A DNA stretch of 64,000 nucleotides from Siphonodentalium dalli. Taxonomy: Eukaryota; Mollusca; Scaphopoda; Gadilida; Siphonodentaliidae. This document shows, one piece after another, positions 921-46,814 of this stretch (positions within the stretch are counted from its first letter, which is position 1; every line of letters starts with the position of its first letter). The DNA is taken from the NCBI GenBank assembly GCA_032622095.1, contig CP136067.1, positions 79,014,705-79,078,704 on the forward strand, given 5' to 3'. The notes below the pieces were generated by a model. It was not told where the DNA came from and made no database searches. It was given only the letters and a program-made list of their open reading frames with translations. A program made the translations under genes and the position numbers.

Positions 921-1085
921 GATATAGAGGATATCCAACGAGTTATGTTGGGATATACGATTTTATGAAACGAGTTTGATAAATTTGATTCACAACGAGT
1001 CGTAGACGAGTTGTGAATCAAATTTATCAAACGAGTTTCATAAAATCTTCTATCCCAACATTACGAGTTGAAGATCTTGTATATC
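921..1085. repeat. 165-bp palindrome with three pairs of same-strand CGAG boxes
   Basis: The two arms are complementary about a centre at 1003. Boxes reading ACGAG on the plus strand start near 938, 970, 995, 1006, 1031 and 1063, placed symmetrically. Because both arms carry the box in the same orientation, each facing pair is mismatched only at its central GA dinucleotide, while flanking bases pair. The stretch 961-996 pairs almost perfectly outside the boxes; the outer 40 bp has a few other differences. It is probably a foldback or MITE. No target-site duplication is obvious. Confidence 0.85.
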
Positions 1086-1142
1086 ACATGGAAAAAAACT
1101 AGAGTAGAGCTTTATGAATTTTTAAGAAATCAAAATCATTAA

Positions 1143-1910: not shown

Positions 1911-2273
1911 CCCTTTACCCAACATAAGGGCCCTGTGCCAATGAATTCTATTATATATGCGAGTCGACCATAGGTCGCCTCGCATATATAAGAGAATGCA
2001 TTGGCTTAACACATTAAAAATTATAAAATTGTTAAACAATGTAAGAAAAAATGGTAAAAAAAAAGATTTTGTTTAGGCCAATGCATTCTCTTATATATGC
2101 GAGGCGACCTATACATTGGCACAGGGCATAACTGTAACTATCACAATGTGGTCAAGGAGCCGGTTCCAATGATATCCATATTTGTATGGTTTTATTGAGA
2201 CAAACCGAAGATATTTTAGGCTTTTGAAGCTTTATTTGGCCGGTTTTGGCCGTTTTGTTGGGTAAAGGGTTAA
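1907..2273. mobile_element. piggyBac-like MITE with TTAA ends
   Basis: TTAA at 1907-1910 is followed by CCCTTTACCCAACA. The exact reverse complement precedes TTAA at 2270-2273. TTAA plus a terminal CCC is the usual end structure of piggyBac-family elements. The element is 359 bp between the TTAAs and has no transposase, so it is non-autonomous. A second palindromic element (1930-2127) sits inside it. Confidence 0.85.
1930..2127. mobile_element. Nested foldback element, GCCCTGTGCCAATG ends
   Basis: The inverted ends GCCCTGTGCCAATG (1930-1943) and CATTGGCACAGGGC (2114-2127) are perfect. Inside, 'ctcttatatatgcgag' and its complement recur several times, so the molecule can fold in more than one way. 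A related copy lies at about 5686-5847. It is non-coding and lies within the TTAA MITE at 1907-2273. Confidence 0.8.
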
Positions 2274-2499
2274 AAGAATCTGCAAAATGAATACACTTAA
2301 AGCGTTGGCTGAGACTATTCACAATCGTATACGGCATTATTGCGCGCTCTGGGGCTGGCGACTGATAATATAGCCCTCCAATATGCCTCTTTGTTTTGTG
2401 TCTATTTTCGTTAGTTCGACGAAGTTGGGCAATAATTTAACTTTAATGAACAAAGCAATCATTTTTGCATTGTCTTGTTTTGGTGTCACGCGCGGTTTT

Positions 2500-2900
2500 T
2501 TAACTCACCTGAGACGAAATATCCGGTGGAGCTATAGTCACCACTCCTTGTTCGCCGTCCGTCCGTCCATCCATCCGTCCGTCAAAAATTCTTTGAACAA
2601 CTTCTCTAGATCCATAGGGCCGAATGGGTTCATATTTGGTGTGGCTATTCCCTAAAAATGTGACTCACATTCAGATTTGTTCAAATGAGGTAACTGGGTC
2701 AAATAGTTGCGAAGCCAGGGCCATAACTCTTTTCCTCCATAGTAATTCTTAAGACGACTTCTCAAATACCATCGGTCCGAATAGGTTCATATTTGGTATG
2801 AGGGATCCTTGTGTGACTGTGTTTCAGATCTGTTCAAATGAGGTCACTGCATTAAATGAAGGCGGAGCCAGTGACATAAGTCAAACAAACAAAAAAACAA
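2500..2900 (+). repeat. Dispersed repeat with (GTCC)n tract
   Basis: A GTCC/ATCC simple tract at about 2557-2583 is followed by two diverged tandem blocks containing 'gggttcatatttggt' and 'cagatttgttcaaatgagg'. The same phrases recur at about 3865-3900, 3990-4015 and 5335-5400, so this is a dispersed repeat. I do not recognise the family. Confidence 0.6.
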
Positions 2901-3318
2901 ATTCAGATTGAACTCAATTGCTCAATTTAAAAAAAAACATGTTATAAAATTTGAAAAGTTAACACCATTATAAGATCCGCCGTGTTATGAAACTTTAATG
3001 AAATCACGGAAACTTTCCATCACCTCCCCCCCTCCCCCAACACACGCACACACACACACACACACACAAACACACACATGACCCAGACCCCACCCTGCCC
3101 ACAACAAACAGCCTCTCCACCCCATATCATTTCACAACTTACCTCTCTCACTAGAAGCAGAGATATATCTGACAGATGACTCAGTCAGGTATTAGCTTCA
3201 GAGAGACAGACACAGTCACGTCATTGAGATTCGAACAATAGATGCTATCTGACAGGCTTGTGTAAACAACTGGTGATTGTTGTTATTATCAAATTAAAAC
3301 ACAATTATGTTACCAATC
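2901..3318. other. Unassigned DNA with a (CA)n microsatellite
   Basis: A CA-rich tract lies at about 3041-3078, after a C-rich run. Nothing else is recognised in this interval. Confidence 0.6.
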
Positions 3319-4670: not shown

Positions 4671-5334
4671 ATCTGCCTGTGTTGGCGCGATGCCTAGTAA
4701 TATGTAACTATAGTGAGAGATAAGAGAATATGTAATGCGTCTTTAATGATATAATATAGTTTCGTGTGATATAGTGTTAGTTGACATGACAGTTGTTATG
4801 TTTCGGGTTCAGCCGATGGCAAGTTTATGGCAAAAATACTGCTTTAAATGTGTTGACACCATTGGGTTCGTTATCACGGTAGAATATCGCAATATAACAT
4901 TATCATCGGGATACTCATCCAAATAACATTACTGGTTATGAGCCTGGTTGTCTGTTTGTCAAAGTAGGTTATGGATATGAGCCTGGATGTCTGATTAGGT
5001 TATGGTTATGAGCTTCATTGTCGGCCGCCTTTGGGCAAAACATTTGTAAATTTTCTCAAACTTTTCGCGATAGAAGTACCTTTTCTGACAATTTTATTGG
5101 TCGGCATCCATTCAAACTTCACAATGTCACAATTTAATTATATATTTAACAATATTTCTTAAATATTACCTGACAAACGCTATTTAAATGATTAAACTAA
5201 ACAAGAGTAGACTAAACAAGACAGTGTAATTGCCAAAGCCCATATCTGGGCTTCCAGCACTCTTACATAGGGTCCAAATATGGGCTTTCAGCACTGAACC
5301 AGTTAAGAACCATCAGGTCTATTTAGTTTATAAT
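4671..5334. other. Unassigned DNA with short local duplications
   Basis: About 4930-5020 contains two to three diverged copies of a ~45-bp unit ('ggttatg.atatgagcctgg.tgtctg'). 5233-5300 contains two copies of 'cccatatctgggctt.cagcac'. Nothing else is recognised. Confidence 0.45.
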
Positions 5335-8830: not shown

Positions 8831-9293
8831 GCTGTCAATCCACGGAATACTTCAAAACAATTGGCTGGCACACACTTGGCCATTCAGCTTATTTCCTTAT
8901 TTCTCGATAACCTAAATTTCTTGATTACTTTACCCGCTACAGAAATCACAGCATCGTCGAGTCGACCACGCCTATACCGCGTGCCTAAAAATGTACCTGG
9001 AAACTGTTCTATACTTCCTACGATTCAACATGAAATTTCGGTGCTGCGTCGTAATTCTTTCTGGTATAACTGCATTGAAAACAACCGTACTAGATGCTAA
9101 TATGTACAAGTAACCAGACAAATCAACAAGATTGAACATTGCAAAGAAGGGGATTGACTATTTAGAGTAACCGGAACGGAACGAGGAACAGGAACAACTT
9201 CCGAGTAATGAAATGACTATTTGGAGTAACAGGAATGGGGCACAGATATATAAGCTCAAATTCCTCGCGTTTTATACGCTATGAAACAATATA
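8831..9293. other. Unassigned DNA
   Basis: Two similar phrases ('gactatttagagtaaccgga' at about 9157 and 'gactatttggagtaacagga' at about 9213) mark a ~56-bp duplication. Nothing else is recognised. Confidence 0.45.
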
Positions 9294-9464
9294 AAGTTAT
9301 TATACAATGTTGTGTACAGTATGTGTTTTTCTTGTACGAGTCCAGGTTGTGGTGTAAAGTCATATTGGACGAGACACGCCAGTGTCGAGTCCAGTATGAC
9401 TTTTCACCACAACCTGGACGAGTACAAGAAAAATGCATACTGTACACAACATTGTATAATGACA
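9294..9464. repeat. 171-bp palindrome with two pairs of same-strand CGAG boxes
   Basis: The arms pair about a centre between 9379 and 9380. CGAG boxes on the plus strand lie at about 9337, 9370, 9386 and 9419. Each facing pair is mismatched only at its central GA, as in the palindrome at 921-1085. Outside the boxes only a handful of bases differ between the arms. Overlapping frames in this area are by-products of the palindrome. Confidence 0.85.
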
Positions 9465-10530
9465 TTTTTATTATCCATCTGTATGTTTATCCAAATTTTG
9501 GGAATAAAACTTTTGTGGTTATTTTTGGTTTTTGTCGGCACTTAATTCTATATAATAGCCTGTATATAGATCATCAGAAAGCATGATTTGGAAAAGTAAA
9601 CACGGAAGTGAGAAAAAAAAAAACTCAATGCCGAAGTGAAACGTCTGCTAAAATCCATCAGTGTTGCGCGCGCATCACAATTTCACCGATTCATTTCGCA
9701 ATAGAGTTAATTCGTGACGTCACGGAGTCCCAATAAAAAAGTGATATTGTACAGTCGGGAGTCCAATATGACTTTCGGTAGTCCAATATGACTTTTTCCA
9801 GGACTATCACGTGGCGGCTTTTGCCCAATCGGAAATGGTGTTAGTTAAGGGATGGATAATAATATATATTATACATCATTCGAAAGCATAGCCTCTCCCC
9901 TTCATGAATATTGCAGCATTTAACACTACTTTTGAGAACTAAGCGTTACCCTGTGCAAAGGTAACCCATTTTCTCGAAATTTGAATCAGTAACTTTCAAC
10001 ATTCGGTGCTATTGTAAGATTATGCCAGGATAAGAGAATAGCTTATATATTCATAGCAATGATTAATCAAAAGTGTTAATCATATCAATAGAACACGAAA
10101 GACCAGCCACTAGAGTTAAGAAAGCAGTATAGTGGCAATGAAACTGAATTAAACTTTTTTATTAACTCAGGAAGTAATAATAATTGCGGTTATTAAAACA
10201 AACCTGGTTGGAATAAGAGGCGAACGCTTAAATGGACCGAATTTTGAGATGGATAGGGGTGGTGTTGGTTTTCCAAAACCACAGTGGTTGTTTCGCGGAG
10301 GTTGAAACCCGACATGAATATCAACATGTTTTGTTCTAATTCCATATAACAAGAGAGATGGTCGCATAATACACATATATCCTTTGGGCCACATAATAAT
10401 TTCTGATCTTGGTGTACAAATATTTTCTTTCCTATATATTTAGATTCCAATAAATATTTGACAATTATAACCGCGTGCAGTGAGAAAGTGACCGTTTAGC
10501 ATTAAGCGGATGCGTTAATTTTTCTAGAAC
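9465..10530. other. Unassigned DNA with palindrome-derived fragments
   Basis: 'agtccaatatgacttt', part of the palindrome arm at 9294-9464, recurs twice at about 9769-9800. No gene is recognised, and minus-strand frames at 10167-10450 show no family signature. Confidence 0.5.
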
Positions 10531-11018: not shown

Positions 11019-11340
11019 TTGAGAGTTATATGGGTGGTAAAAGAACGATGTTATGCTTATTTCCGATAATGCGCAACTGCCACTGTGAGCTCATATTTTT
11101 GTTGTAACTACAATGTACTTCCGAAGAGCTATATACAGATCTAGAGCAGTTTCATGTCATATAACGCGAGGTCCAGACCTAATTTTCTGGACTCGTTTCG
11201 TAAATTCCGCTATAAACTGGGGACTCGTTGTAGATCCTCTATATATAGTTTAGTTGAGGGACATCTCAACGTGCCTTTTCGAGTTCGGGTTTAGAGTGTA
11301 GGCCCTATATAAGTCAGTTTGATGTAAATTTAGTATATAT
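11019..11340. other. Unassigned DNA with a CGAG-box relative at 11165-11250
   Basis: On the minus strand 11165-11250 carries two ACGAGTCC boxes spaced 32 bp, preceded by 'tatagaggatct'. The outer arm of the palindrome at 921-1085 has the same order and spacing. Here the second box is part of an ordinary hairpin (GTCCAGA...TCTGGAC). Low certainty. Confidence 0.4.
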
Positions 11341-11377: not shown

Positions 11378-12874
11378 ATGGAGTTATGGCGAGAGGCGTT
11401 ATGGGTGAAACTTATGAGAACCGGAATCAACGGCAAGATATTTAATATAATCCGGAACATGTACCAGGCTACAAAGTCTTGCGTAGTCAGCAATGGTCGG
11501 TTGTCAGATTATTTTGTAAGTAACGTAGGGGTAAAACAAGGCGAAAACCTATCCCCTCTCCTGTTCTCTATTTACTTAAATGATCTGGAAGATTTTCTAG
11601 AAAATTGCGTTACCGAGGGGTTAAACTATCTTAACGATCGAGTTTTCCATGAATTAGAGATTTATCTCAAACTATGGTGCATCTTATATGCAGATGATAC
11701 TGTTTTGTTTGCGGACAATCCTTATGAGATGCAACGAATTTTAGATGCCTTCTCTGACTATTCAGAGTCTTGGGAGCTCAAAATTAACACTCAAAAAACT
11801 AAGGTAATGATCTTCACCAACAAGAAATTGAGTTCTCCCCCAAATTTCATGCTTTGTGGTGATAAATTAGATATAGTCGAACAGTTTCCTTATTTAGGCA
11901 TTGAATTATTTTATAACGGACGATTCTGTCGGGCAATCAAGTCGATAAAAATGAAATCGACAAAAGCTATGTACGGACTCCTGTCCAAGGTGAGAAATCT
12001 TCACCTATCTGCAGACTTAGCATTAAAACTTTTTGATTACCTCATACAACCCATTCTGTTATATGGATGTGAATTATGGGGCTTTGAGAATACTCGCGAT
12101 ATCGAGGCTGTCCATCTCAAATTCTGTAAGCTCCTAACGAACATGAAAATGAGTACTCCAAATTATATGGTTTATGGTGAGCTTGGAAGATGGCCATTGC
12201 GTGTTGAAATTGACAAAAGAATGACCTCATTTTGGAGCCGCCTAATGACGAAAAACAAAAGTAATCACCCCTTCATATTGTACAAGTTAATTTTAGCTAT
12301 GAAAGGCGGTGGCAAAAGAATACGATACCTTGATCACATTGAAGACATTTTTGTGCGTGCGGATTGCGAAGACAACTGGAAAACACAGTTACCCGTTTCG
12401 AATTCTAAACTTCAATATATGCACAAAAAACTACTTGGCAATTTTTTTCTCCAGTGGAATAATGAAGTTTCTCAATCGTCACGAGGAGAATTTTATCGTA
12501 ACCTGAAAAAATGTCCTTCGCTTAGTCGTTTTTATGTTGAATGTCCCTTTAATTCAATTATCTCGCTACAGAGAATTCGTACATCAAATCATAGATTAGG
12601 CGTTGAAACTATGAAGTGGGCAAAATCTAAGAACCAAAAGAAAGGGATATCTGGAATTGGCTCATGTCAGTTATGTGGCGCCATCATGTGCGATGAATAT
12701 CATTTTGTAATATTTTGTCCAAATTTACGTGAATACCGCATGAAATATATTGACGAATCGATCTGGAAAAATCCATCGCGAGAGTCTTTTTATGGCTTAT
12801 TAAATTCTTCTGACACAATGAAGCTAAACAAACTTTCAAACTTTATAAAAATCGGATTGAAACAATTTAAATAA
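11378..12874 (+). CDS. Non-LTR retrotransposon reverse transcriptase, 5'-truncated ORF2
   Basis: This 498-residue frame is the C-terminal part of a LINE ORF2. It would copy element RNA into DNA at the target site. Visible motifs are GVKQGENLSP (residues 51-60), the catalytic YADD (104-107), LKINTQKTKVMIF (134-146) and FPYLGIE (170-176), then a thumb/connection region. A C-terminal zinc knuckle-like Cys-X2-Cys-X8-His-X4-Cys lies at about 430-447. The endonuclease domain and the N-terminal RT motifs are missing, and the reading begins right after an ATT repeat (11351-11371), so this is a 5'-truncated insertion. The first Met is only the first in-frame one. The rest is free of stops, suggesting a fairly recent copy. 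The exact clade is uncertain. Confidence 0.93.
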   Translation: MELWREALWVKLMRTGINGKIFNIIRNMYQATKSCVVSNGRLSDYFVSNVGVKQGENLSPLLFSIYLNDLEDFLENCVTEGLNYLNDRVFHELEIYLKLWCILYADDTVLFADNPYEMQRILDAFSDYSESWELKINTQKTKVMIFTNKKLSSPPNFMLCGDKLDIVEQFPYLGIELFYNGRFCRAIKSIKMKSTKAMYGLLSKVRNLHLSADLALKLFDYLIQPILLYGCELWGFENTRDIEAVHLKFCKLLTNMKMSTPNYMVYGELGRWPLRVEIDKRMTSFWSRLMTKNKSNHPFILYKLILAMKGGGKRIRYLDHIEDIFVRADCEDNWKTQLPVSNSKLQYMHKKLLGNFFLQWNNEVSQSSRGEFYRNLKKCPSLSRFYVECPFNSIISLQRIRTSNHRLGVETMKWAKSKNQKKGISGIGSCQLCGAIMCDEYHFVIFCPNLREYRMKYIDESIWKNPSRESFYGLLNSSDTMKLNKLSNFIKIGLKQFK

Positions 12875-30300: not shown

Positions 30301-31131
30301 TCTTCTTCTATATATTTTGAGAACTCCTTGTATTCGAGAGATAGTCCACACCCTCCGGACCTCGATGATATGATCGTGAATGAGTATTTATATACCCCAC
30401 TAAACTTTGACAAACACCAGTAATGGTGTGTAGATCATTTACATATCTCTCCTATATATTTTGATACAATCTATCTAATTTACATATCTCTCTTATATAT
30501 TTATGTTTGTGTGTGTGTTGTACTTCATACAAATCTACGATTCTCGACCGATCGGGACGAAACTTGGTACGTGTGTGTAGTTTGACCAGGCGGTGGTCGT
30601 TGTCGTATTGGCGAGCCCGTGGGACGCCCGTGCAGCGCATGCGCAGACGAGATCTCGGAAACGGGTGGAGCTATCGACTTGAAATTTGCTATGTGAATGT
30701 ATCTTGCGCCGGGTACAAATTTTATCGGGTCGCCGAGCGGTGCGACGCCCGTGCAGCGCATGCGCAGACGAGATCTCGGAAACGGGTGGAGCTATCGACT
30801 TGAAATTTGCTATGTGAATGTATCTTGCGCCGGGTACAAATTTTATCGGGTCGCCGAGCCCGTGCGACGACCGTGCAGCGCATGCGCAGACGAGATCTCG
30901 GAAACGGGTGGAGCTATCGACTTGAAATTTGCTATGTGAATGTATCTTGCGCCGGGTACAAATTTTATCGGGTCGCGGTACAAATTTTCATGCGCAGACC
31001 AGATCTCGGAAACTGGTGGAGCTACCGGGTACAAATTTTTCTTATTGAAACGCGTGGAGCTAAAAATTTAAAAAATATATATAAAAATGTCATGTTTCGG
31101 ACAAGCCGCCGGTGGCGGGCTAACCTGCTAG
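30301..31131 (+). mobile_element. Helitron 1 of a four-element head-to-tail array
   Basis: It starts TCTTCTTCTATATATTTTGAG and ends with a GCCGCCGGTGGCGGGC hairpin, then TAACCTGCTAG. The interior has three full ~122-bp units and a partial one, each with a GCGCATGCGC palindrome and 'agatctcggaaacgggtgg'. No Rep/helicase, so it is non-autonomous. Frames running through the units are repeat artefacts. The exact 5' base is uncertain by several bases because the flank is TCTTC-rich. Confidence 0.8.
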
Positions 31132-31940
31132 TCTTCTTCTATATATTTTGAGAACTCCTTGTATTCGAGAGATAGTCCACACCCTCCGGACCTCAATGAT
31201 ATGATCGTGAATGAGTATTGATATACCCCACTAAACTTTGACAAACACCAGTAATGGTGTGTAGATCATTTACATATCTCTCCTATATATTTTGATACAA
31301 TCTATCTAATTTACATATCTCTCTTATATATTTATGTTTGTGTGTGTGTTGTACTTCATACAAATCTACGATTCTCGACCGATCGGGACGAAACTTGGTA
31401 CGTGTGTGTAGTTTGACCAGGCGGTGGTCGTTGTCGTATTGGCGAGCCCGTGCGACGCCCGTGCAGCGCATGCGCAGACGAGATCTCGGAAACGGGTGGA
31501 GCTATCGACTTGAAATTTGCTATGTGAATGTATCTTGCGCCGGGTACAAATTTTATCGGGTCGCCGAGCGGTGCGACGCCCGTGCAGCGCATGCGCAGAC
31601 GAGATCTCGGAAACGGGTGGAGCTATCGACTTGAAATTTGCTATGTGAATGTATCTTGCGCCGGGTACAAATTTTATCGGGTCGCCGAGCCCGTGCGACG
31701 ACCGTGCAGCGCATGCGCAGACGAGATCTCGGAAACGGGTGGAGCTATCGACGTGAAATTTGCTATGTGAATGTATCTTGCGCCGGGTACAAATTTTCAT
31801 GCGCAGACCAGATCTCGGAAACTGGTGGAGCTACCGGGTACAAATTTTTCTTATTGAAACGCGTGGAGCTAAAAATTTAAAAAATATATATAAAAATGAC
31901 ATGTTTCGGACAAGCCGCCGGTGGCGGGCTAACCTGCTAG
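31132..31940 (+). mobile_element. Helitron 2 of the array, near-identical to Helitron 1
   Basis: It begins with TCTTCTTC immediately after CTAG of the previous element and ends in the same hairpin and CTAG. It differs from its neighbour by few substitutions and a ~20-bp deletion in the last unit, so the two are recent relatives. Confidence 0.85.
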
Positions 31941-33550
31941 TCTATTATATATTTTGGAAGATCTGTGTGTGTGTGTTTGTATCTGTCTGTGTGTGTGTGT
32001 GTAATCGATGGACTCGAAAACGGCCCACCCGATTTCGATGAAACTTGGTACGTGGGGGTATTTTCGGGTCAGGAGTAACATAGGCCTATTGATTTTCAGA
32101 TCCGAGGTCAACTTTTCACGTGCCGAGGTCAAATCTGTTTTTACGCCGTTTTGCGCTAATATATTTCAGTTCGGTGCTCACAAATCGATTCGATATAGCG
32201 CGAATAATAAATTGCCAGTCATATAATTTGCACGGTTAGAATCTGTGGCGCTTCATCTTTCCAATGATGTATCACACGCCTGTGTACGTTTAAAGTTTCT
32301 ACCTTAATTATCGGGAAGAACGCAGGACCATGCTTCGCTCATCGAAAATCATTGCGTAAATATATTACGCCATCAACATATCGTGACGTGATCGCGTTAA
32401 CTCTTATCCGGCCGATGTCGCGTTAACTCATCACCGGCCGAGGTATCCGCAAATGACATTGGGCTATATATATCGGAAACGGGTGGAGCTATCGACTTGA
32501 AATTTGGTATGTGAATGTATCTTGCCCCGGATACGAATTTTATCGGGTCGCCGAGCCCGTGCGACGCCAGCTTCGCGCATGCGCAGACCAGATCTCGGTA
32601 ACGGGTGGAGTAATCGACTTGAAATTTGGTTTTTGAATAGCACATAGGCCTATTGATTTGCCCGTGCGACGTGACCTTGACCTTCAAAACTCATATCTCG
32701 GGATCCGCAGTGCTATCACGCCGGATTTAGCACTGCGATGCAGGGAGGATAACTCTATATTCATACGTCGACGAACGTTAGCAATTTGCAGGCATGCAAT
32801 TACGCATCGTGTATTTTTCCCAAAATTATAACATTTACAATATATATTGTCAATTTGCAGGCTATTAAAAATCGTGCATCTATCCCAAAATATATCATTT
32901 ATTACAATTTCTGATATATAAATTTTGTTACAGCTAATATTCTTAGGTCTATTGTCGATAGATTTATTTTTTGTATATTGAGCATAGGCTCAAGCTGTTT
33001 ACATTTACCCCGCGGGTCTGGAATCTCATCCAAGAATCCATTTAGCTGAAATGATACTTCGTTGTTGCGAAATGGAATCTACCGGTGGCCCCAAGCCGTC
33101 AATGTCAACAACATCGAAATTGTTCAACTTTGACTGCGAGAAAATAATTAGTTAAAATTTACCACACAATGCTAATTTATCTTTACGTTGAAGCTTGATA
33201 ATCAATGAGCGTGTGTATATGAGGCGCGTTTACATACTTTAGTGGAAATCAAATCGGGTAAAACTGGCGGATTTTTACGGACGAAATTTGATACATAGGA
33301 TACATAGGGTATCTCGGTATCCGCTGGGCCGATTTCCCGGTATCCGCTTGCCCAATTTCCACCATTTTTGGGGTGTTGGTGTTGGAAAATTGCCAGACAG
33401 ATTTTGACAAAATTTGATACTTAGTGGACCATAGTGGTAATTGTTTCCAGGGAGTGTTTTGGACGGGTCAAATCGTGACCCCACCTGACCTTGACCTTCA
33501 AAATGGTGAATTCAATGTCAAAGCCCGGACGAAGTCGGGTCACCTTCTAG
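31941..33550 (+). mobile_element. Helitron 3 of the array (mosaic interior)
   Basis: It begins TCTATTATATATTTTGG directly after CTAG, then a TG microsatellite, and ends CCCGGACGAAGTCGGGTCACCTTCTAG (hairpin plus CTAG; 33524-33550). Its middle (32460-32640) contains units resembling Helitrons 1-2, including one GCGCATGCGC site near 32576, and the end carries TCAAGGTCA-type motifs. About 32760-33230 is unrelated filler. Non-coding. Confidence 0.75.
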
Positions 33551-38328: not shown

Positions 38329-39178
38329 TAAGGGTACGTTCGCACATGCGCTCGTAAGTTTTCACGGTATGTCGATCTTGCTGCGGGAATTTCGTCGTAG
38401 AAAACAATATGGTGCCAGAATATAAATGGAAACATGCATATAAAGTGCATCTGTACCACAGCTAACTGCGTGATATTATATGTAGATCCACATGTAGAGC
38501 TAAGCTACCGAAATTTGCATATAAATAGCATGCAATATTATCGCAAGAATCAACCATAGATATATTTGAAGGCAAAATGTCATTAGCACTGATGCATGTA
38601 TAACTACATAACTTTTATTTCTCATGCCGTTAGCTTTGGTAAAGATGCATTTTATATGCATGTTTCCGTTCATATTATGGCACCATATAGTTTTCTACGA
38701 TGAAATGTCCGCAAAAAATACCGTGCAAACTTACGAGTGTGTGAATGTATACCCTAACTTACGAGTGTGTGAATGTATACCCTAACTTACGAGTGTGTGA
38801 ATGTATACCATAACTTACGAGTATGTGAATGTATACCCTAACTTACGAGTGTGTGAATGTATACCCTAACTTACGAGAGTGTGAATGTATACCATAACTT
38901 ACGAGTGTGTGAATGTATACCCTAACTTACGAGTGTGTGAATGTATACCCTGACTTACGAGTGTGTGAATGTATACCCTAACTTACGAGTGTGTGAATGT
39001 ATACGCTAACTTACGAGTGTGTGAATGTATACCCTGACTTACGAGTGTGTGAATGTATACCCTGACTTACGAGTGTGTGAATGTATAACTTAACTTACGA
39101 GTGTGTGAATGTATACCCTAACTTACGAGTATGTGAATGTATAACTTAACTTACGAGTGTGTGAATGTATAGCCTAAC
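38329..39178. mobile_element. Foldback element whose right end is expanded into a 28-bp array
   Basis: The left arm (38329-38476) is complementary to 38618-38765: 'gtagaaaacaatatggtgcc' faces 'ggcaccatatagttttctac', and 'aacatgcatataaagtgcat' faces its partner near 38650. The last 28 bp of the right arm is tandemly repeated to 39178. Non-coding. Confidence 0.85.
38738..39178 (+). repeat. 28-bp minisatellite, about 15-16 units
   Basis: The unit is 'acttacgagtgtgtgaatg' plus 'tataccctaa'. Variants include 'gtatgtg' and 'cctgac'. It derives from the terminal inverted repeat of the foldback element. Confidence 0.95.
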
Positions 39179-40400
39179 TGAGATACTGTTTTCCTTTTTG
39201 GGCGAACATTTCAGTAGCTTTGTTAATAATGAGTCTTTGGGGCATCAGAAGTCTGCATATAAATAGTTTGATCCCCGGAACATGAAAAAACGACACGTAC
39301 AAGGACTCAAAGGATTCGAAGTGTGTTAATGCGAAATAACATTCATTTTATAAAAGTCTGTAAAACCTCTCTTTTATGCAAACATTAGTGTTACCGTGAA
39401 ATTGCAGATAAAAGTCCAATTAGTCCACTAAGATACCAAATTTTAATCAAAACTTGACGATAAACATTAGAAAAGGTCAAAGCATTGAAAAATATTCTGA
39501 AAATAATATTCAGACTAAAATATGACAATACACGATTATCAATGTCTGTTGACAAATCACTGTAACAGTCATGTTGTCATAACAATAGTTCAACAACACG
39601 AAATTTCATTATTGCTAAAACTATCAATACTGAAATAAGAACAGAGTTTATCTGTTTCTCCATGTTTTTCTCATGGGTGATGTTTTACAGACTTGCATAT
39701 ATGTTGCACATTTACCCAATGCGAGTGCCTTGGTCCCTTTAATTAATATTAAATCGAGACTTGAAGATTGAGTCAGCAAGAATTTGTTGTTTTTTTATGT
39801 ACGTTATTGTTGCAGAATCTTTCGTTAATCATAAATACACCTAAAGTATATCCGCTCGATGCTATCACCAGCTGTCAAAATGACGTTAGTGCAGCGCAAT
39901 GTGAACACCACCTATATATTAGCCAATTCCACTGGGTGTCAACAATCTTGATGGTGTTGCGATGGTAGCCCTCGCAGTTTCGTATTTCATAATAATAGCT
40001 ATATGAAGTAGAATGATATAGCTGTATTATAAATTTGTAATTATTCGTGGCCAGAGTTTAGAATTACCATCGATATGCATCTAAAATTGTTATCGCCATG
40101 ACAGGGACGATATATATTACCATAAGCTAATGTCATTTAATTGAAATGCACTTGTGATATGCACAGCTGCTCTCGACTTGACACGACTAAGTAGGGGTTC
40201 GAACGATATGATCAAACAGCTTATTTCCCTGTTATAAACAACATACAAAGTTCTCAATGTTTTCGAAAATAGAGTCAACATTTTGCTGCTGATACTACCT
40301 TCTTTGTTGAGTAAGCTTTCAAATGACTATTCCAGCAGCCATATTTACAAGATTCACATGTTTAGTGTTTAATTTGCACAAAGATGGCTAATGCCGGGAT
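39179..40400. other. Unassigned DNA
   Basis: No gene, RNA or clear repeat is recognised. Confidence 0.45.
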
Positions 40401-40828: not shown

Positions 40829-40979
40829 GAGCGGACAAACTCAAAAAGCTCACCAGAAGTAGGAGTTTAGTCCATCGGCACCACACACGGACTTGTTATA
40901 CATCATTTTAAAGGTTATGACATTCCGCATCGGATAGGACCCGGTGTGAAATATACAAATGATGCAAAAGATGATTTTT

Positions 40980-42010
40980 AGCTGAATAAGTGCCAAAATT
41001 CGGCAAAAATCCCTGTTTTTGTAAAATTCGGCAAAATGAGAAATAAAAGTATATAAACGCGAACATTTTGCGCTAAAATATTGTAGTCTACATATCTCTA
41101 GATATTTACTATGATAGTGGTACGATTTCTCTGATATAACGAAGATTTTTTTAAAGATTTATTGTAAAAATAGTCAAAACAGCGCAATTTTTCATTTTTT
41201 TTGCCTCACTTAATGGGCGATAGATCAATATTGTTTTGATCGGGGATATCGTATATAGTCTAGAAAAGTGCGGATATATATACCGCATACGGCAGTATGC
41301 TGAATATATCATCATATTTAACACGTGATGTGTTATGTAAGATTATTTCAACCCTCACCCCAAAATTCATCAAAAAGTCACCGTTTTGGGGAAATTCGGC
41401 ACAAATGAATACAAAAGCACAGGTATTCTGGATATGTTTGTGCTACGATATAGCAGGTTACACACTTATAAATACTATCTAATGATAATGCCATGATTGT
41501 GATGATAAATGTGAAAAATTCTTAAATTTACGTGGAAAATAGACAAAAAAATCATTCATTTTCAGTTGTTTCGCCCCTCTTAATAGGCTATTATTCAGTA
41601 TTGCATTGAATGGTAATCCCGTATATAATATAGAAAACTTGTGGAAATATATACTGCATATGATTGTAGGATAATGATGTGATTCTTCGCCACAGATGCT
41701 ATGTGGTGGTAGATTGTGTTACCCCCACCCCAAATTTCATAAGAAACAAAATCAGTTTTAGAAATTTCGGTATGGCAGAATACAAAAGCACAACTCCGAT
41801 TATTTTGTGCTATTAAATTGAAGTCTACCCACTTCGAGATATACATTATGATAACGCCATGGTATAATTTAAAGATGGCAACATTTCGGAGTTTTCTGAT
41901 GAAAGTAGACCGAAAATCGTAAAATATAAACTTGTTTTGCCCATCTATAGATGGGTGATAATTCAATTCCATTTTGAACAATAATCCAGGACAAACTCTC
42001 AAGAGTTGAC
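40980..42010 (+). repeat. Three ~368-bp diverged tandem units within the left arm
   Basis: Parallel landmarks occur at 41203, 41573 and 41940 (GCC.C..CT.TA..GG) and at 41352 and 41719 ('cc.caccccaaa.ttcat'). The same units appear in inverse order in the right arm (about 45690-46680). Confidence 0.75.
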
Positions 42011-42934
42011 GAGACACTGACATAATGAAGAAATTACATCATTGTATATGTTTACTTCGCATAATATAGCTTCACAGTTGTATAAGATTATACATATTTG
42101 GAGGTTTAGTGTTTGTTAATAACCAGGCCCAGCCACAGTACATGCATGTAACTTGTAACACGTGTTGCCATTACCAACGAAATCACCTGACTCACATGAC
42201 CATTCCGCTTACACGTACACCATCAAACAACCGTTTAGACGTTTTGTGTCAAATGTGCAGCATTGTGAAATGTGTATCAGAGGGGTGTCCAATCTTTATA
42301 TCAATCGACGAACATGTGCTTAGTGAACTTTTGTTAAATTCTTCAGTAGCGGTGACCAGGTCGTTACTTTTCCCAAATGGGTTGTTGGTACGAACTACCA
42401 TTATAGTAGTACTATACATATAGGCATTACGAGTATAGCGTATAGTATGCGTATGTGTTTCTTACGGTCTAAACACATTTTTACAGAAGTGACGATTGCG
42501 AGTCCATTTGGGAGAAAATAGTGCCGTTCATTGCATTCAATCTTCTTGCCACACACAGTATTGTGATATAGTTATGTTTGTTTTTAATTATGTTGTTTAC
42601 ATGATAAATATTGTTAGTTGTACACTAGATGAATGCATGCAAAACTCCCGTGCCCATATACTTGGGTTTCTCGAATCCGTAATCGTAACTACAGCTATTG
42701 AAAATCTACAACTGATAGAAAGAACACATATTCTAGTGATGTACCTGTAGCACCATATGCGTAATTCATGCGTGCAGTAGATTATTATGCGTAAGCTGTC
42801 GAGTTCCAACACAGCAAATAATGATTTACGGTAGGCATCCATTGTAATGCATTGCGCTAAATATCGCCCGAACCAAAAAACTTCTAGAAAATCCGGTGAA
42901 AAACGGAAACAATTTGTGACACCATGCAGATAGC

Positions 42935-43490
42935 TATGATGTCACAAGATCATGGTTAGATTACCAAGCACACTTTGAAATATGTTCCAATATAAATGGA
43001 TTGGAAAATGGTGACATGGGCCTTTATCTATGCGCATCCTTGAGAAGATTGGCACAAGGAACACTCGGTGACCTACTCCCAGGACGAGAAGAAGACTACA
43101 ACGTTCTTGTTGGTGCGATAAAAGGCCGATTTGCTGCCAAAAACCAGACTGACCAGATGGTACAATTGCGTGCACGACGGCAAAGGGCAAGGGGGAGTTA
43201 CCGACGTCTGACCAATATATTATATCATACTGCAACACATGAATTGAGAGACACCTTGGCAAAGGACCAATTCATTGGTGGGTTGTATGATCCCGATATA
43301 TATACGGCTCATTGTACAACGAGCACGACTGGGCTCTCTTGATGAGAGCATAAGACATGCATTTGAATTAGAGGCTTTTGCCAAGTCTGAAAAACATAGG
43401 GCTAAACACTATGCTAGGGTAGTAAATGAAGCAGACACAACACAAAGCAAAAAATATAGAGTTTTAAGAACTAAAAAAGATAAGAGATGA
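42935..43490 (+). pseudogene. Gypsy (Ty3-type) retrotransposon gag fragment, frameshifted
   Basis: This encodes the capsid-like region of a Ty3/Gypsy Gag, the structural protein of a retrotransposon particle. Recognisable blocks are GLYLCASLR, LPGREEDYN, RFAAKNQT and ELRDTLAKDQFI in one frame (to about 43310), then IRHAFELEAFAKSEKHRA in the next frame. A frameshift therefore lies near 43310-43340. The upstream end is open, without a start codon in frame, and no LTR is visible on either side. It lies in the spacer of the 6-kb foldback element. It is an inactive remnant. Confidence 0.85.
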
Positions 43491-43631
43491 ACTGAAGCCC
43501 CAAACTGGTTCTAATGGGAAAGCTCAAAATAGCTCACAACCGTCCGAGACATCACAGTCCATCTCTGAGATGAAGGACATAAAACAAATATTGACTGATA
43601 TGAAGAGGTGTAAAGGGGAGATTAACAAAGA

Positions 43632-44273
43632 ATGACAAACTTGGAGAACCAAAACAAGGAGAAAAAGGGTAACACAAATGAGTCCCGGAGGGACTGTCGT
43701 GACGATAGACAATGGAGACATAATTATAATGATAATCCTGATTATAACACGAACGAATACAAAGAACGCACCAGATGTAGAACTTCTCACAATCCACGCG
43801 ACACGTGCCATAATGCATATCGTGGTAGGGGAGACCAGCAGAACACAAGTGGACATCGTAACTCCAACGAGTTTGTTAAATACAGCTCTTCTGATTGCAA
43901 TCTGTATGGGCAGCCAGTGAGGTTTCTGATTGGTACTGGATCAACAGTTTCCATGCTCTCAAGAAACTGTATGACTACTTATCGGAATATAAATACCATA
44001 TGTTACATAAATGATGTAGCACACGAGCTGCTGATCATTGAGTCCAACGAAACGAACAAGGCATACAGAGTTGTATCATCTGACTCATCGGAAACTCTGC
44101 CAGAGATAGTATCTTCTCGTCACTTGTCAGAGCACATCAACACAAATTCCCCAGAAAGAATTGGAACTATTGAAACTGATGATCACGAGCCCACTTATAC
44201 CTCGATAAGCAGCATGGACCAGGCACCAGCTATGGTAGAGAACACATATATTGGCAGAATATGCCATATGTGA
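43632..44273 (+). pseudogene. Gypsy gag C-terminus and aspartic protease remnant
   Basis: A 213-residue frame continues the retrotransposon. It has a basic, Asn/Arg-rich nucleocapsid-like part (residues 1-85), a degenerate Cys/His cluster near 48-59, then the protease start FLIGTGSTVSML around residue 98. The usual catalytic motif in this family is DTG; here the Asp is Gly, so the protease would be inactive. Stops and frameshifts separate it from the gag part (43491-43631) and from anything downstream. No reverse transcriptase or integrase is recognised. Confidence 0.7.
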
Positions 44274-45142
44274 CTCCTGGAAGGTCTGGAAATTCACAAA
44301 TGCTCAGAAAGCTTAACGAACCTATTATGGGTATATATGATCGCATGACAATACATCAGTACTTTCTGCTACCATATAAGCAATGAGGATGGGTTTCAAA
44401 GAGCTGAACCAAAACCACCCTATCTGAAGTGAAACCAAATGCACAGGAGAAATATATTCTTCCTGACACATTGGCAGACATACATGGTCAGATAAATTCG
44501 ACATGTAATGACCAAGGCCTTGGAGATATTACGGCATCTGTTCGTCATCATATTCCAAGAAATATGGCCCAACCCAAAAACGGCGCCATGGTACCGCAAG
44601 GGGGATTCAAGGAAGATATATAGAATTAAAGAACATCGCAAGGTTGATGACAAGGCTCGATTTGATGGCTGTGACCAAGAAGATCGTGACGCATTAAAAC
44701 CCCAAATACTGTGTGAAGGTCCACATAGGGAAAAGTCGTGGATGATGACTCCCAGATAGGAGAGCCACATAAATACAGTATATATACTGGTTGTACAGTA
44801 CCGTTGATGTAAAACAAATATTCTATTATATGATTAATGGGGAGTGGCAGCCATGGGGGGGGGGCATCAAGTCCCGAGTGGCTGCAGGTTCATTCCAAAC
44901 ACGACCCCTTGGCTCAACTTGCAGGGTTGAGCCACGAATAGATGTGGTGAGATCGAGAGCTCACCTTAATGGCTGTGCCGTCTCGTGTGTAGTTCATGCC
45001 CATTGGTCGCTAAAAACCCTCTATGTGTATCGAAGAATAGTAGGCTATGCGACCGCATTGGAGAACATTTCTGCACCCAGATACAAACAAACGTTAGCTT
45101 CCATCGGTTCCAGGTTGCAGACGACCTACGGTGTAAAGGAAG
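44274..45142. other. Right part of the foldback spacer, unassigned
   Basis: No clear continuation of the pol gene is recognised. A frame at 44508-44759 is not identified. There is a G homopolymer at about 44857-44865. Confidence 0.45.
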
Positions 45143-46814
45143 TCGTACCAACGACCCATTTGGGAAAAGTAACGGCGTGGTCACCGCTGCTGAAGAATTT
45201 AACAAAAGTTCACTAAGCACAGGTTCGTCGATTGATATAAAGATTGGACACCCCTCTGATATACACATTTCGCAATGCTGCACATTTGACACAAAACGTC
45301 TAAACGGTTGTTTGATGTTGTACGTGTCAGCGGAATGGTCATGTGAGTCAGGAGATTCTGTTGGTAATGGCAACACACGTTACAAGTTACATGTACTGTG
45401 GCTGAACCTGGTTATTAACAATCACTAAACCTCCCAATACGTATAATCTTATAAAACTGTGAAGCTATATTATGCGAAGTAAACATATACAATGATGTAA
45501 TTTCTTCAACTCAAGTAACTATCAAAAGCCTCAGCTTGATAAGGTATGTGTATAATGCATAAATGTGTATAGGAATATTCCGTGTTTGTCTCATCTTGCA
45601 ATGTATTGCATTGTTGTGGCGATGGGTGCAATACCGTAACCAAACAAATGCGACAGAAGATGATACAATCCGAAAACATTCATAAGCATTATGTGTATCG
45701 TCAACTCTTGAGAGTTTGTCCTGGATTATTGTTCAAAATGGAATTGAATTATCACCCATGTATATATAGAGGGGCAAAACAAGTTTATATTTCACGATTT
45801 TCGGTCTACTTTCATCAGAAAACTCCGAAATGTTGCCATCTGTAAATTATACCACGACGTTATCATAATAATCGGAGTAGTGCTTTTGTATTCTGCCATA
45901 CCGAAATTTCTAAAACTGATTTTGTTTCTTCTGAATTTTGGGGTGGGGGTGACACAATCTACCACCACATAGCATATATGGCAAAGAATGACATCCTTAT
46001 CCTACAATCATATGCAGTATATATATACAAGTTTCTATATTATATACAGGATCTCCATTCAATGCAATACTGAATAATAGCCTATTAAGAGGGGCAAAAC
46101 AACTGAAAATGAATGATGTTTTGTCTATTTTCCACTTAAATTTAAGAAATTTTTACATCTATCACCGCAATCATGGCATTGCATTACTTTGTATTTATAA
46201 GTGTGTAACCTGCTATATCGTAGCACAAACATATCCCGAATACCTGTTCTTTTGTGTTCATTTGTGCCGAATTTCCCTAAAACAGTGACTTTTTGCTGAA
46301 TTTTGGGGTGAGGGTTGAAATAATCTTACATAACACATCACGTGTTAAATATGATGACATATTCAGCATACTGTCGTATGCGGTATATATATACGCACTT
46401 TTCTAGACTATATACGATATCCCCGGTAAGAATAATATTGATCTATTGCCCATTAAGTGAGGCAAAAAAAATGAAAAATTGCGCTGTTTTGTCTAATTTT
46501 ACAATAAATCTAAAAAAAATCTTCGTTATATCAGAGAAATCGTACCACTATCATAGTAAATATCTAGAGATATGTAGACTACAATATTTTAGCGCAAAAT
46601 GTTCGCGTTTCTATACTTTTATTTCTCATTTTACAAAAACAGGGATTTTTGCAGAATTTTGGCACTTAATCGGCTAAAAATCATCTTTTGCATCATTTGT
46701 ATATTTCACACCGGGTCCTATCCGATGCGGAATGTCATAACCTTCAAAATGATTATCAAAAGCCCGTGTGTGGTGCCGATGGACTAAACTTTCTGAAATC
46801 GGTTCCGTCCGCTC

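Follow-up and report, generated by a model that had tools for sequence, protein, structure and literature searches.

Near the start of the window (the whole stretch of 64,000 nucleotides of Siphonodentalium dalli DNA that was analysed) lies a long palindrome, which is the terminal hairpin of a high-copy non-autonomous transposon family, H1. The window copy of H1 is dead: it is split at about 1140 by a later insertion, and its far end is missing. A complete element of a second family, H2, is present further along; its hairpin (9290-9475) contains two CGAG/CGAG boxes. A third family, H5, is represented by a one-arm fragment. The features of the three families are:

923..1090, plus strand: H1 terminal hairpin and adjoining inverted repeat; terminus TATAGAGG at 923, host A at 922 (from the sharp family-alignment boundary and the consensus hairpin)
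939..942, plus strand: H1 box 1, CGAG, facing 1064-1067
971..974, plus strand: H1 box 2, CGAG, facing 1032-1035
996..999, plus strand: H1 box 3, CGAG, facing 1007-1010
1007..1010, plus strand: H1 box 3', CGAG, facing box 3
1032..1035, plus strand: H1 box 2', CGAG, facing box 2
1064..1067, plus strand: H1 box 1', CGAG, facing box 1
1080..1090, plus strand: H1 inverted repeat TATATCACATG, next to the hairpin; H1 copies whose far end was read finish with the partner CATGTGATATA
1091..1142, plus strand: first part of the H1 body, then broken by the later insertion; H1_L002 matches 918-1142 at 92%
2281..2503, plus strand: H1 body, continued beyond the nested insertions and cut off short of the 3' end; 78%
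4711..4773, plus strand: fragment of the far (inverted-repeat) end of an H1-type element; 85%
9290..9863, plus strand: complete H2 element, 96.0% to L049 over 574 columns
9337..9340, plus strand: H2 outer box, CGAG, facing 9419-9422
9370..9373, plus strand: H2 inner box, CGAG, facing 9386-9389
9386..9389, plus strand: H2 inner box, 3' side, CGAG, facing 9370-9373
9419..9422, plus strand: H2 outer box, 3' side, CGAG, facing 9337-9340
9468..9479, plus strand: H2 inverted repeat TTATTATCCATC beside the hairpin (family alignment)
9851..9862, plus strand: H2 far-end inverted repeat GATGGATAATAA (family alignment)
11166..11246, no strand assigned: H5 hairpin, one-arm fragment, 86-89% to both H5 arms

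Other sequences in this part of the window deserve mention. At 1139-1456, inside the H1 body, is a MITE-like element with 93-bp inverted repeats (96%); its flanks suggest, by eye, a TTAA-type target. The element at 1907-2273 has the ends TTAACCCTTTACCCAACA and TGTTGGGTAAAGGGTTAA and contains near-perfect palindromes (GCCAATGCATTCTCTTATATATGCGAG...), found also in L002, L003, L064 and L109. In the H2 body, AGTCCAATATGACTTT occurs twice at 9740-9800; it is made of words shared with the H2 hairpin arm, and is perhaps the source from which the arm was copied.

The preliminary description placed the axis of the H1 palindrome at 1003, and this is borne out. About this axis 66 of 80 positions pair, against 14-28 at 33 alternative axes, and the arms (918-1001 and 1005-1088) are 83% complementary. 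ACGAG starts at 938, 970 and 995 and then at 1006, 1031 and 1063, always on the plus strand. The three symmetric same-strand pairs described earlier are all present; each facing pair reads 5'-CGAG/3'-GAGC, with only the G.A and the A.G unpaired. It had further been stated that nothing else is wrong at the boxes, which is true of boxes 2 and 3 but not of box 1, where the window copy is also mismatched at 944. Additional mismatches of this copy are found at 956, at 958, and at other positions towards the base. Positions 944, 956 and 958 are all paired in the 39-row H1 consensus; the window mismatches there are therefore decay of the window copy. The constant core of a box is CGAG, and the outer A..T differs between families.

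When the window palindrome is folded as DNA, none of 200 shuffles is equally stable (z = -13.7); folded as RNA, it has a z of -13.5. In each of the two window copies the plus (GA) strand has the more stable fold, with -88.9 kcal/mol against -82.1 for the minus strand in one and -130.6 against -116.7 in the other. Two candidate signals were rejected. U.G wobbles in the window copy of H2 were considered as a sign of RNA, but the 29-copy consensus has a single T.T there. The plus strand of the window has an excess of ACGAG (60 against 19), but 22 of the 60 sit in two tandem-repeat arrays; these are a 28-bp-unit minisatellite and a 121/122-bp repeat (38617-39260 and 30530-32638).

Six families were searched for in the 2.23-Gb assembly (9 contigs). 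First-look candidates number 2267 for H1, 1600 for H2, 1372 for H5, 1746 for H3, 883 for H4 and 1687 for H7; the best 40 of each family were scored, and show 93-99% identity besides the query. The best 40 of the 2267 H1 candidates are the window copy and 39 others, at 93-96% identity; the H1 alignment contains the window copy and 38 of these 39. Identity is 96-98% among the best 40 of the 1600 H2 candidates, besides the window. Thirty H2 loci were taken, including the window copy, and 29 of them are alignable by length. Further copies were taken for H5 (20), H3 (14) and H4 (6); H6 and H7 are represented by one copy each. Elements are about 330-910 bp in size, with inverted repeats of 11-14 bp. 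The H1 element is about 560-590 bp long, and its hairpin-side boundary is sharp in the family alignment. H3 was considered as a longer, perhaps autonomous element, as identity ran on; this was rejected, since it ends 910 bases from its start with a matching repeat. There is no ORF of note in these 910 bases.

The families were found in different ways. The H2 hairpin came from a palindrome scan that does not require boxes; the palindrome reported (9299-9460) has G.A/A.G mismatch pairs twice, and its arms are not alignable with those of H1. Five more hairpins with other arms, H3 to H7, came from a scan for facing CGAG in 322,599 bases (107 records including the window). That scan selects for boxes, so the presence of boxes in H3-H7 follows from selection, and only H1 and H2 are free of it; spacing, polarity, termini and repeats played no part in the selection.

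Box starts, counted from the TATA terminus, are identical in H1 and H5: 17, 49, 74 / 85, 110, 142. They are 48, 81 / 97, 130 in H2; 45, 70 / 80, 105 in H3; and 48, 73 / 83, 108 and 138 in H4, where the outermost 5' box is TGAG. H6 has one facing pair (47 and 119), and H7 has two pairs, with spacing 31, 17, 31. All ten two-base mismatches in the consensus stems of H1, H2, H3 and H5 are 5'-CGAG/3'-GAGC. The other departures in these stems, from the basal 13 nt to the loop, are two T.T and one G.T; the H4 consensus stem has a few more single mismatches.

Outside the boxes the arms differ between families, and pairing is kept. Comparison of H1 with H5 covers 60 pairs once the GA columns are set aside: 31 are identical, 27 are changed on both sides with pairing retained, none is changed on one side, and two are unpaired in one family. 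Arm identity outside the boxes is 26/54. A 65-column core (box 2 to box 2') was aligned across H1, H5, H4 and H3 in seven rows (six distinct), hand-chosen with one or two per family; 95.0% of its cells are paired. Both sides change in 17 of 27 pairs, against a shuffle mean of 8.3, and none of 500 shuffles is as high. With slid partners at most 3 pairs show two-sided change, although this control is the weaker one as the structure was derived from the same families. Every C, G, A and G of the four boxes is invariant, in H3 and H4 partly by selection. A separate count on consensus rows gives 99 of 116 cells paired (GA included) and 16 columns with two-sided change, against at most two when slid. 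Structure is better conserved than sequence in the hairpin, and the CGAG/CGAG boxes are unchanged in sequence and almost so in position. The earlier proposal that the boxes may be structural is upheld at this level, between families, by the compensating changes of arm pairs and by CGAG/CGAG at fixed places. The same mismatches in several families, despite changed arms, suggest a working part of element movement. As an outside control, the box spacing 25-10/11-25 (H1/H3-type) was sought in viral contigs. It occurs 155 times, with arm pairing at chance level (on average 6.5 of 21, and 10 in the best case), and these 962,202 bases (116 stretches) contain no box hairpin.

Within a family the boxes are less well kept. 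It had been expected that GA would be better conserved than its neighbours among copies, and this fails: 4.9% of GA positions are changed in the 39 H1 rows, against 2.0% of other arm positions. The difference can be put down to dead copies, to the CpG in each box and to some hairpin-templated repair. Among 532 box copies (H1 234, H5 126, H2 116, H3 56), 483 are CGAG and seven are CTCG, which pairs perfectly with the opposite CGAG. Four of these flips are in H1 (L016, L024, L039 and L043) and three in H5 (one in L066, two in L112); there are none in the H2 and H3 box copies, and one H2 box is CTCA. Independent single changes would be expected to give about 0.003 flips against the seven observed, although L016 and L024 are flipped at the same box and may share ancestry, which makes the computed probability inexact. 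Adjacent double changes elsewhere in the arms number 0/4014 in H1, 0/2163 in H5, 0/1554 in H3 and 7/3208 in H2, whose rows include two copies at 85-86% identity. The simple reading of the GA-to-TC flips is that one arm has been rewritten from the opposite one, in a strand that was folded or had switched template; their precision indicates mutual templating of arms in this genome. Boxes that pair normally, which the preliminary description had set against a structural role, thus occur in single scattered copies (7/532). They are present in no consensus built (H1-H5), so the founders keep the mismatch.

Directly after the hairpin there is a short repeat, and its inverse ends the element, in six families (H1-H5 and H7). 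The hairpin-side repeats are TATATCACATG in H1, TTATTATCCATC in H2, TTATTACATGATCC in H5, TTTATACCATGAC in H3 and TTATTATATGAC in H7. In H4 the repeat is TTATCACATGATC, and its far partner has one mismatch. No far-end partner was found for H6 within the 670 bases examined. Immediately before the terminus stands an A in 66 of 67 rows (H1 26/27, H5 20/20, H3 14/14, H4 6/6); in H2, A is at the second base before the terminus in 24 of 26 rows. Rows with an altered terminus were dropped (12 of 39 in H1, 1 of 21 in H5, 3 of 29 in H2). The dinucleotide before the terminus in H1 is TA in 15 of 27 rows, GA in eight, AA in three and TT in one. H5 (20/20) and H3 (14/14) are always preceded by TA, so that the true end of these elements could be two bases farther outward; the TATA runs at the termini make the exact target or cut ambiguous by 1-3 bases. 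No target duplication of 2-8 bp was found in 26 of the 30 H2 loci at 35 offset pairs (lowest p 0.023 among 245 tests); of the four loci dropped from this test, one has no long match and three have no anchor.

Head-to-tail H2-H2 junctions without a spacer are found at 4 of the 30 H2 loci, and mixed-family junctions at L058, L065, L066 and L257. H7 gives two match pairs on one strand, 445 and 447 bases apart by their ends. On the minus strand of L058 (636-1512 and on), H4, H5 and H2 abut head to tail with almost no bases between them. In L005, at about 2080-3173, the far end of H1 is a long array of a 32-base unit of its own last bases (GATTTTTCAATGATATTATAGGGGTTTCATGT), as if recopied repeatedly.

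The palindrome is probably the terminal recognition hairpin of non-autonomous rolling-circle-like (Helitron2/Helentron-like) transposons, with the boxes serving as read-out marks. During transposition one strand would be peeled off as ssDNA and then fold. A putative HUH-type nuclease would recognise the folded end through the tandem-mismatch boxes. Boxes at about 45-49 nt from the terminus, with others 25-33 nt deeper, could be contact points or ruler marks. They may distinguish a folded single strand from ordinary duplex and set the cut or stop site. Tandem G.A in a CGAG context would be expected to form sheared pairs. In H1-H5 and H7, CGAG is on the strand that has the hairpin at its 5' end, and CTCG on the opposite strand; the CGAG strand would have tandem G.A, likely sheared, and the CTCG strand open T.C. 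Box polarity is constant in the six families with located ends, so the boxes are strand-specific whichever strand is read. If the arrangement is that of Helitron2, the hairpin would lie at the 3' end; CTCG (open T.C) would then be on the peeled strand and tandem G.A on the opposite one. The mismatches may also protect a perfect palindrome of over 60 bp from destruction.

Among known transposons the ends fit Helitron2/Helentron best. In Helitron2, according to the passages drawn on here, one of the asymmetric terminal inverted repeats is at the terminus and the other directly precedes the 3' hairpin; the termini show compensating changes between two related elements, and Helitron-1N1_CRe has no target-site duplication (TSD) (Bao and Jurka 2013, PMC3627910). 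The six families share the asymmetric repeats, one terminal and one beside the terminal hairpin. They differ in that the repeat is about 150-180 nt from the hairpin-side end, whereas it is 20-30 bp away in the Helitron2 elements of those passages; in that CGAG tandem-mismatch boxes are conserved here; and in the target (PMC3627910). A Helitron2-type 5' hairpin involving the repeat was not found in the first 60 nt of the six families (z -2.5 to +1.1 against base shuffles); 5' stems touch the repeat in H1 and H4 only, with a z of -0.4 each.

Helentron/HINE/DINE-1 elements (PMC4067079) and the oyster Cg_HINE (PMC7492417) are described, in the parts of those papers used, as high-copy and non-autonomous, with sub-terminal inverted repeats of 11-15 bp and a 3' palindrome. 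The families here resemble them in being non-autonomous and high-copy and in having short inverted repeats and an end palindrome. However, the mite families have a palindrome of 5-10 bp and TT as target, and mismatch boxes go unmentioned in the same parts (PMC4067079, PMC7492417). The Helentron-type TT insertion is not matched by the A before the terminus in 66/67 rows of H1, H3, H4 and H5. In Helitron1/Helraiser, as far as the sections used describe it, the 3' hairpin signals termination, insertion takes place at AT and leaves no TSD, and head-to-tail junctions occur (PMC4778049, PMC5876387). A hairpin at the end, an A before the insertion, absence of TSD in H2 and head-to-tail junctions are common ground; Helitron1/Helraiser differs in its 19-bp palindrome and its lack of inverted repeats (PMC4778049, PMC5876387). 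The Helitron1 ends 5'-TC and CTRR-3' are not present in the alignments and copies here. There is also a likeness to the prokaryotic IS200/IS605 and REP/RAYT systems, in which a mismatched or bulged ssDNA end hairpin is read by an HUH nuclease; those hairpins are short.

Helitron_like_N has at least 151 matches in the genome. No box hairpins were found downstream of three Helitron_like_N loci (stretches of 7, 4 and 4 kb at some distance from the Rep domain), and 30 Rep-domain loci with 1.5-kb flanks contain no box hairpin and none of four end motifs. No transposase linked to these ends, and so no RepHel partner of the Helitron2 kind, was found in the Rep-domain loci and stretches examined. The literature search, which lay mostly outside subscription papers and Repbase reports, found no description of such mismatch boxes, and the portions of PMC5148889, PMC8268682 and PMC5139131 consulted make no mention of them. 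The ends are judged to be a new, structurally defined variant of Helitron-like ends. A further step can be proposed with less confidence: the families may form a distinct eukaryotic single-strand transposon class, in which a 150-180-nt hairpin carries sheared G.A boxes as a strand-specific ruler for a putative nuclease, selection maintains the boxes against templated repair, and the arms are free to vary by compensating change.

Alternatively, the hairpin could act as RNA. The plus strand would be transcribed into a long dsRNA, in which sheared G.A boxes either direct or hinder a processing enzyme, as for a hairpin RNA or small RNA, or protect the transcript. The more stable fold of the plus (GA) strand in both window copies agrees with this, as does the GA polarity, which is constant in the six families with located ends; the 23-nt stem between boxes 2 and 3 (H1, H3, H4 and H5) is also near small-RNA size. 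An RNA role is nevertheless unlikely. The hairpin starts right at the element's end, the flips have altered the DNA itself, and the combination of no H2 target duplication and head-to-tail junctions points to a DNA-level role of the end. There are no Rfam matches at gathering score in the 64-kb window.

It is comparably improbable that the boxes are now functionless, as relics inherited from the building of the palindrome by nested or stepwise doubling at a CGAG junction. The arms of H1, H3, H4 and H5 were turned over by compensating changes and CGAG stayed. Correction to CTCG does occur (7/532), so an unselected mismatch should vanish from founder copies. Stepwise building might nonetheless leave boxes between segments with complementary ends (GT..AC), as is seen in H1 and H2, and boxes decay faster than arms in copies, as relics would. 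The related reading of nested insertion with ACGAG as target duplication was abandoned, since the geometry recurs in families that have different arms.

Less probable still are ordinary cut-and-paste MITEs, moved by a DDE transposase, with a hairpin at one end and boxes that only tame the palindrome. The 11-14 bp inverted repeats, the size of about 330-910 bp and the high copy number are MITE-like, and TATA-rich termini could hide a TA target duplication, with TA before the terminus in 20/20 H5 and 14/14 H3 rows. However, that dinucleotide is not fixed in H1 (15/27 TA), and there is no 3-8 bp target duplication in 26 H2 copies. Furthermore, one of the inverted repeats is not terminal, being about 155 nt in from the end, and head-to-tail fusions are found. 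Box-blind scanning for long hairpins also bears on this reading. In 151 own-genome records (360,820 bases) it found 144, of which 129 have facing CGAG and 15 do not; most of the 129 were retrieved for box hairpins, so the ratio of 129 to 15 in this biased sample means little. From the 15 boxless ones it is clear that boxes are not a general feature of long palindromes in this genome, and that a palindrome of such length can do without them; this weighs against the recognition-hairpin reading as well as against MITEs. Drawings of six of the 15 look like foldbacks of other kinds, their mismatches single and scattered; a GCCAATGCATTCTC-type repeat is found in a further four, and H2 sequence in three.

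The preliminary description also offered a directional recombination core, with the asymmetric GA as the crossover dinucleotide of a serine- or tyrosine-recombinase site; each box is indeed a short palindrome around an asymmetric dinucleotide, but this is very improbable, as flanks beyond C..G are unconserved between families, unlike those of a recombinase site, and aligned copies (near full-length matches, a biased sample) have no box-to-box deletions. The observation first made in the window is confirmed and its interpretation is partly supported: the structural reading is upheld and widened, and the recombination-core reading is not supported.

Helitron-like terminal hairpins are short in the portions of published work drawn on here, which makes transposase read-out hard to infer from sequence. 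The present families amount to a natural mutational scan, in which arms are replaced and boxes and geometry are kept in abundant families of high identity. CGAG/CGAG at set distances is a concrete signal for searches of other genomes, for finding the missing transposase and for bench tests.

At least two other kinds of boxless long foldback are present in the records (L075 899-1118, L260 2107-2327 and L067 199-361; L065 394-608 and L074 2582-2753). The window itself contains a large inverted repeat at 40902-46753, with arms of about 1.5 kb made of 91-99% complementary segments about 2.7 kb apart. At 11378-12871 there is a 498-aa open frame with a match to RVT_1 (Pfam PF00078, E 3.2e-20), which is a reverse transcriptase fragment.
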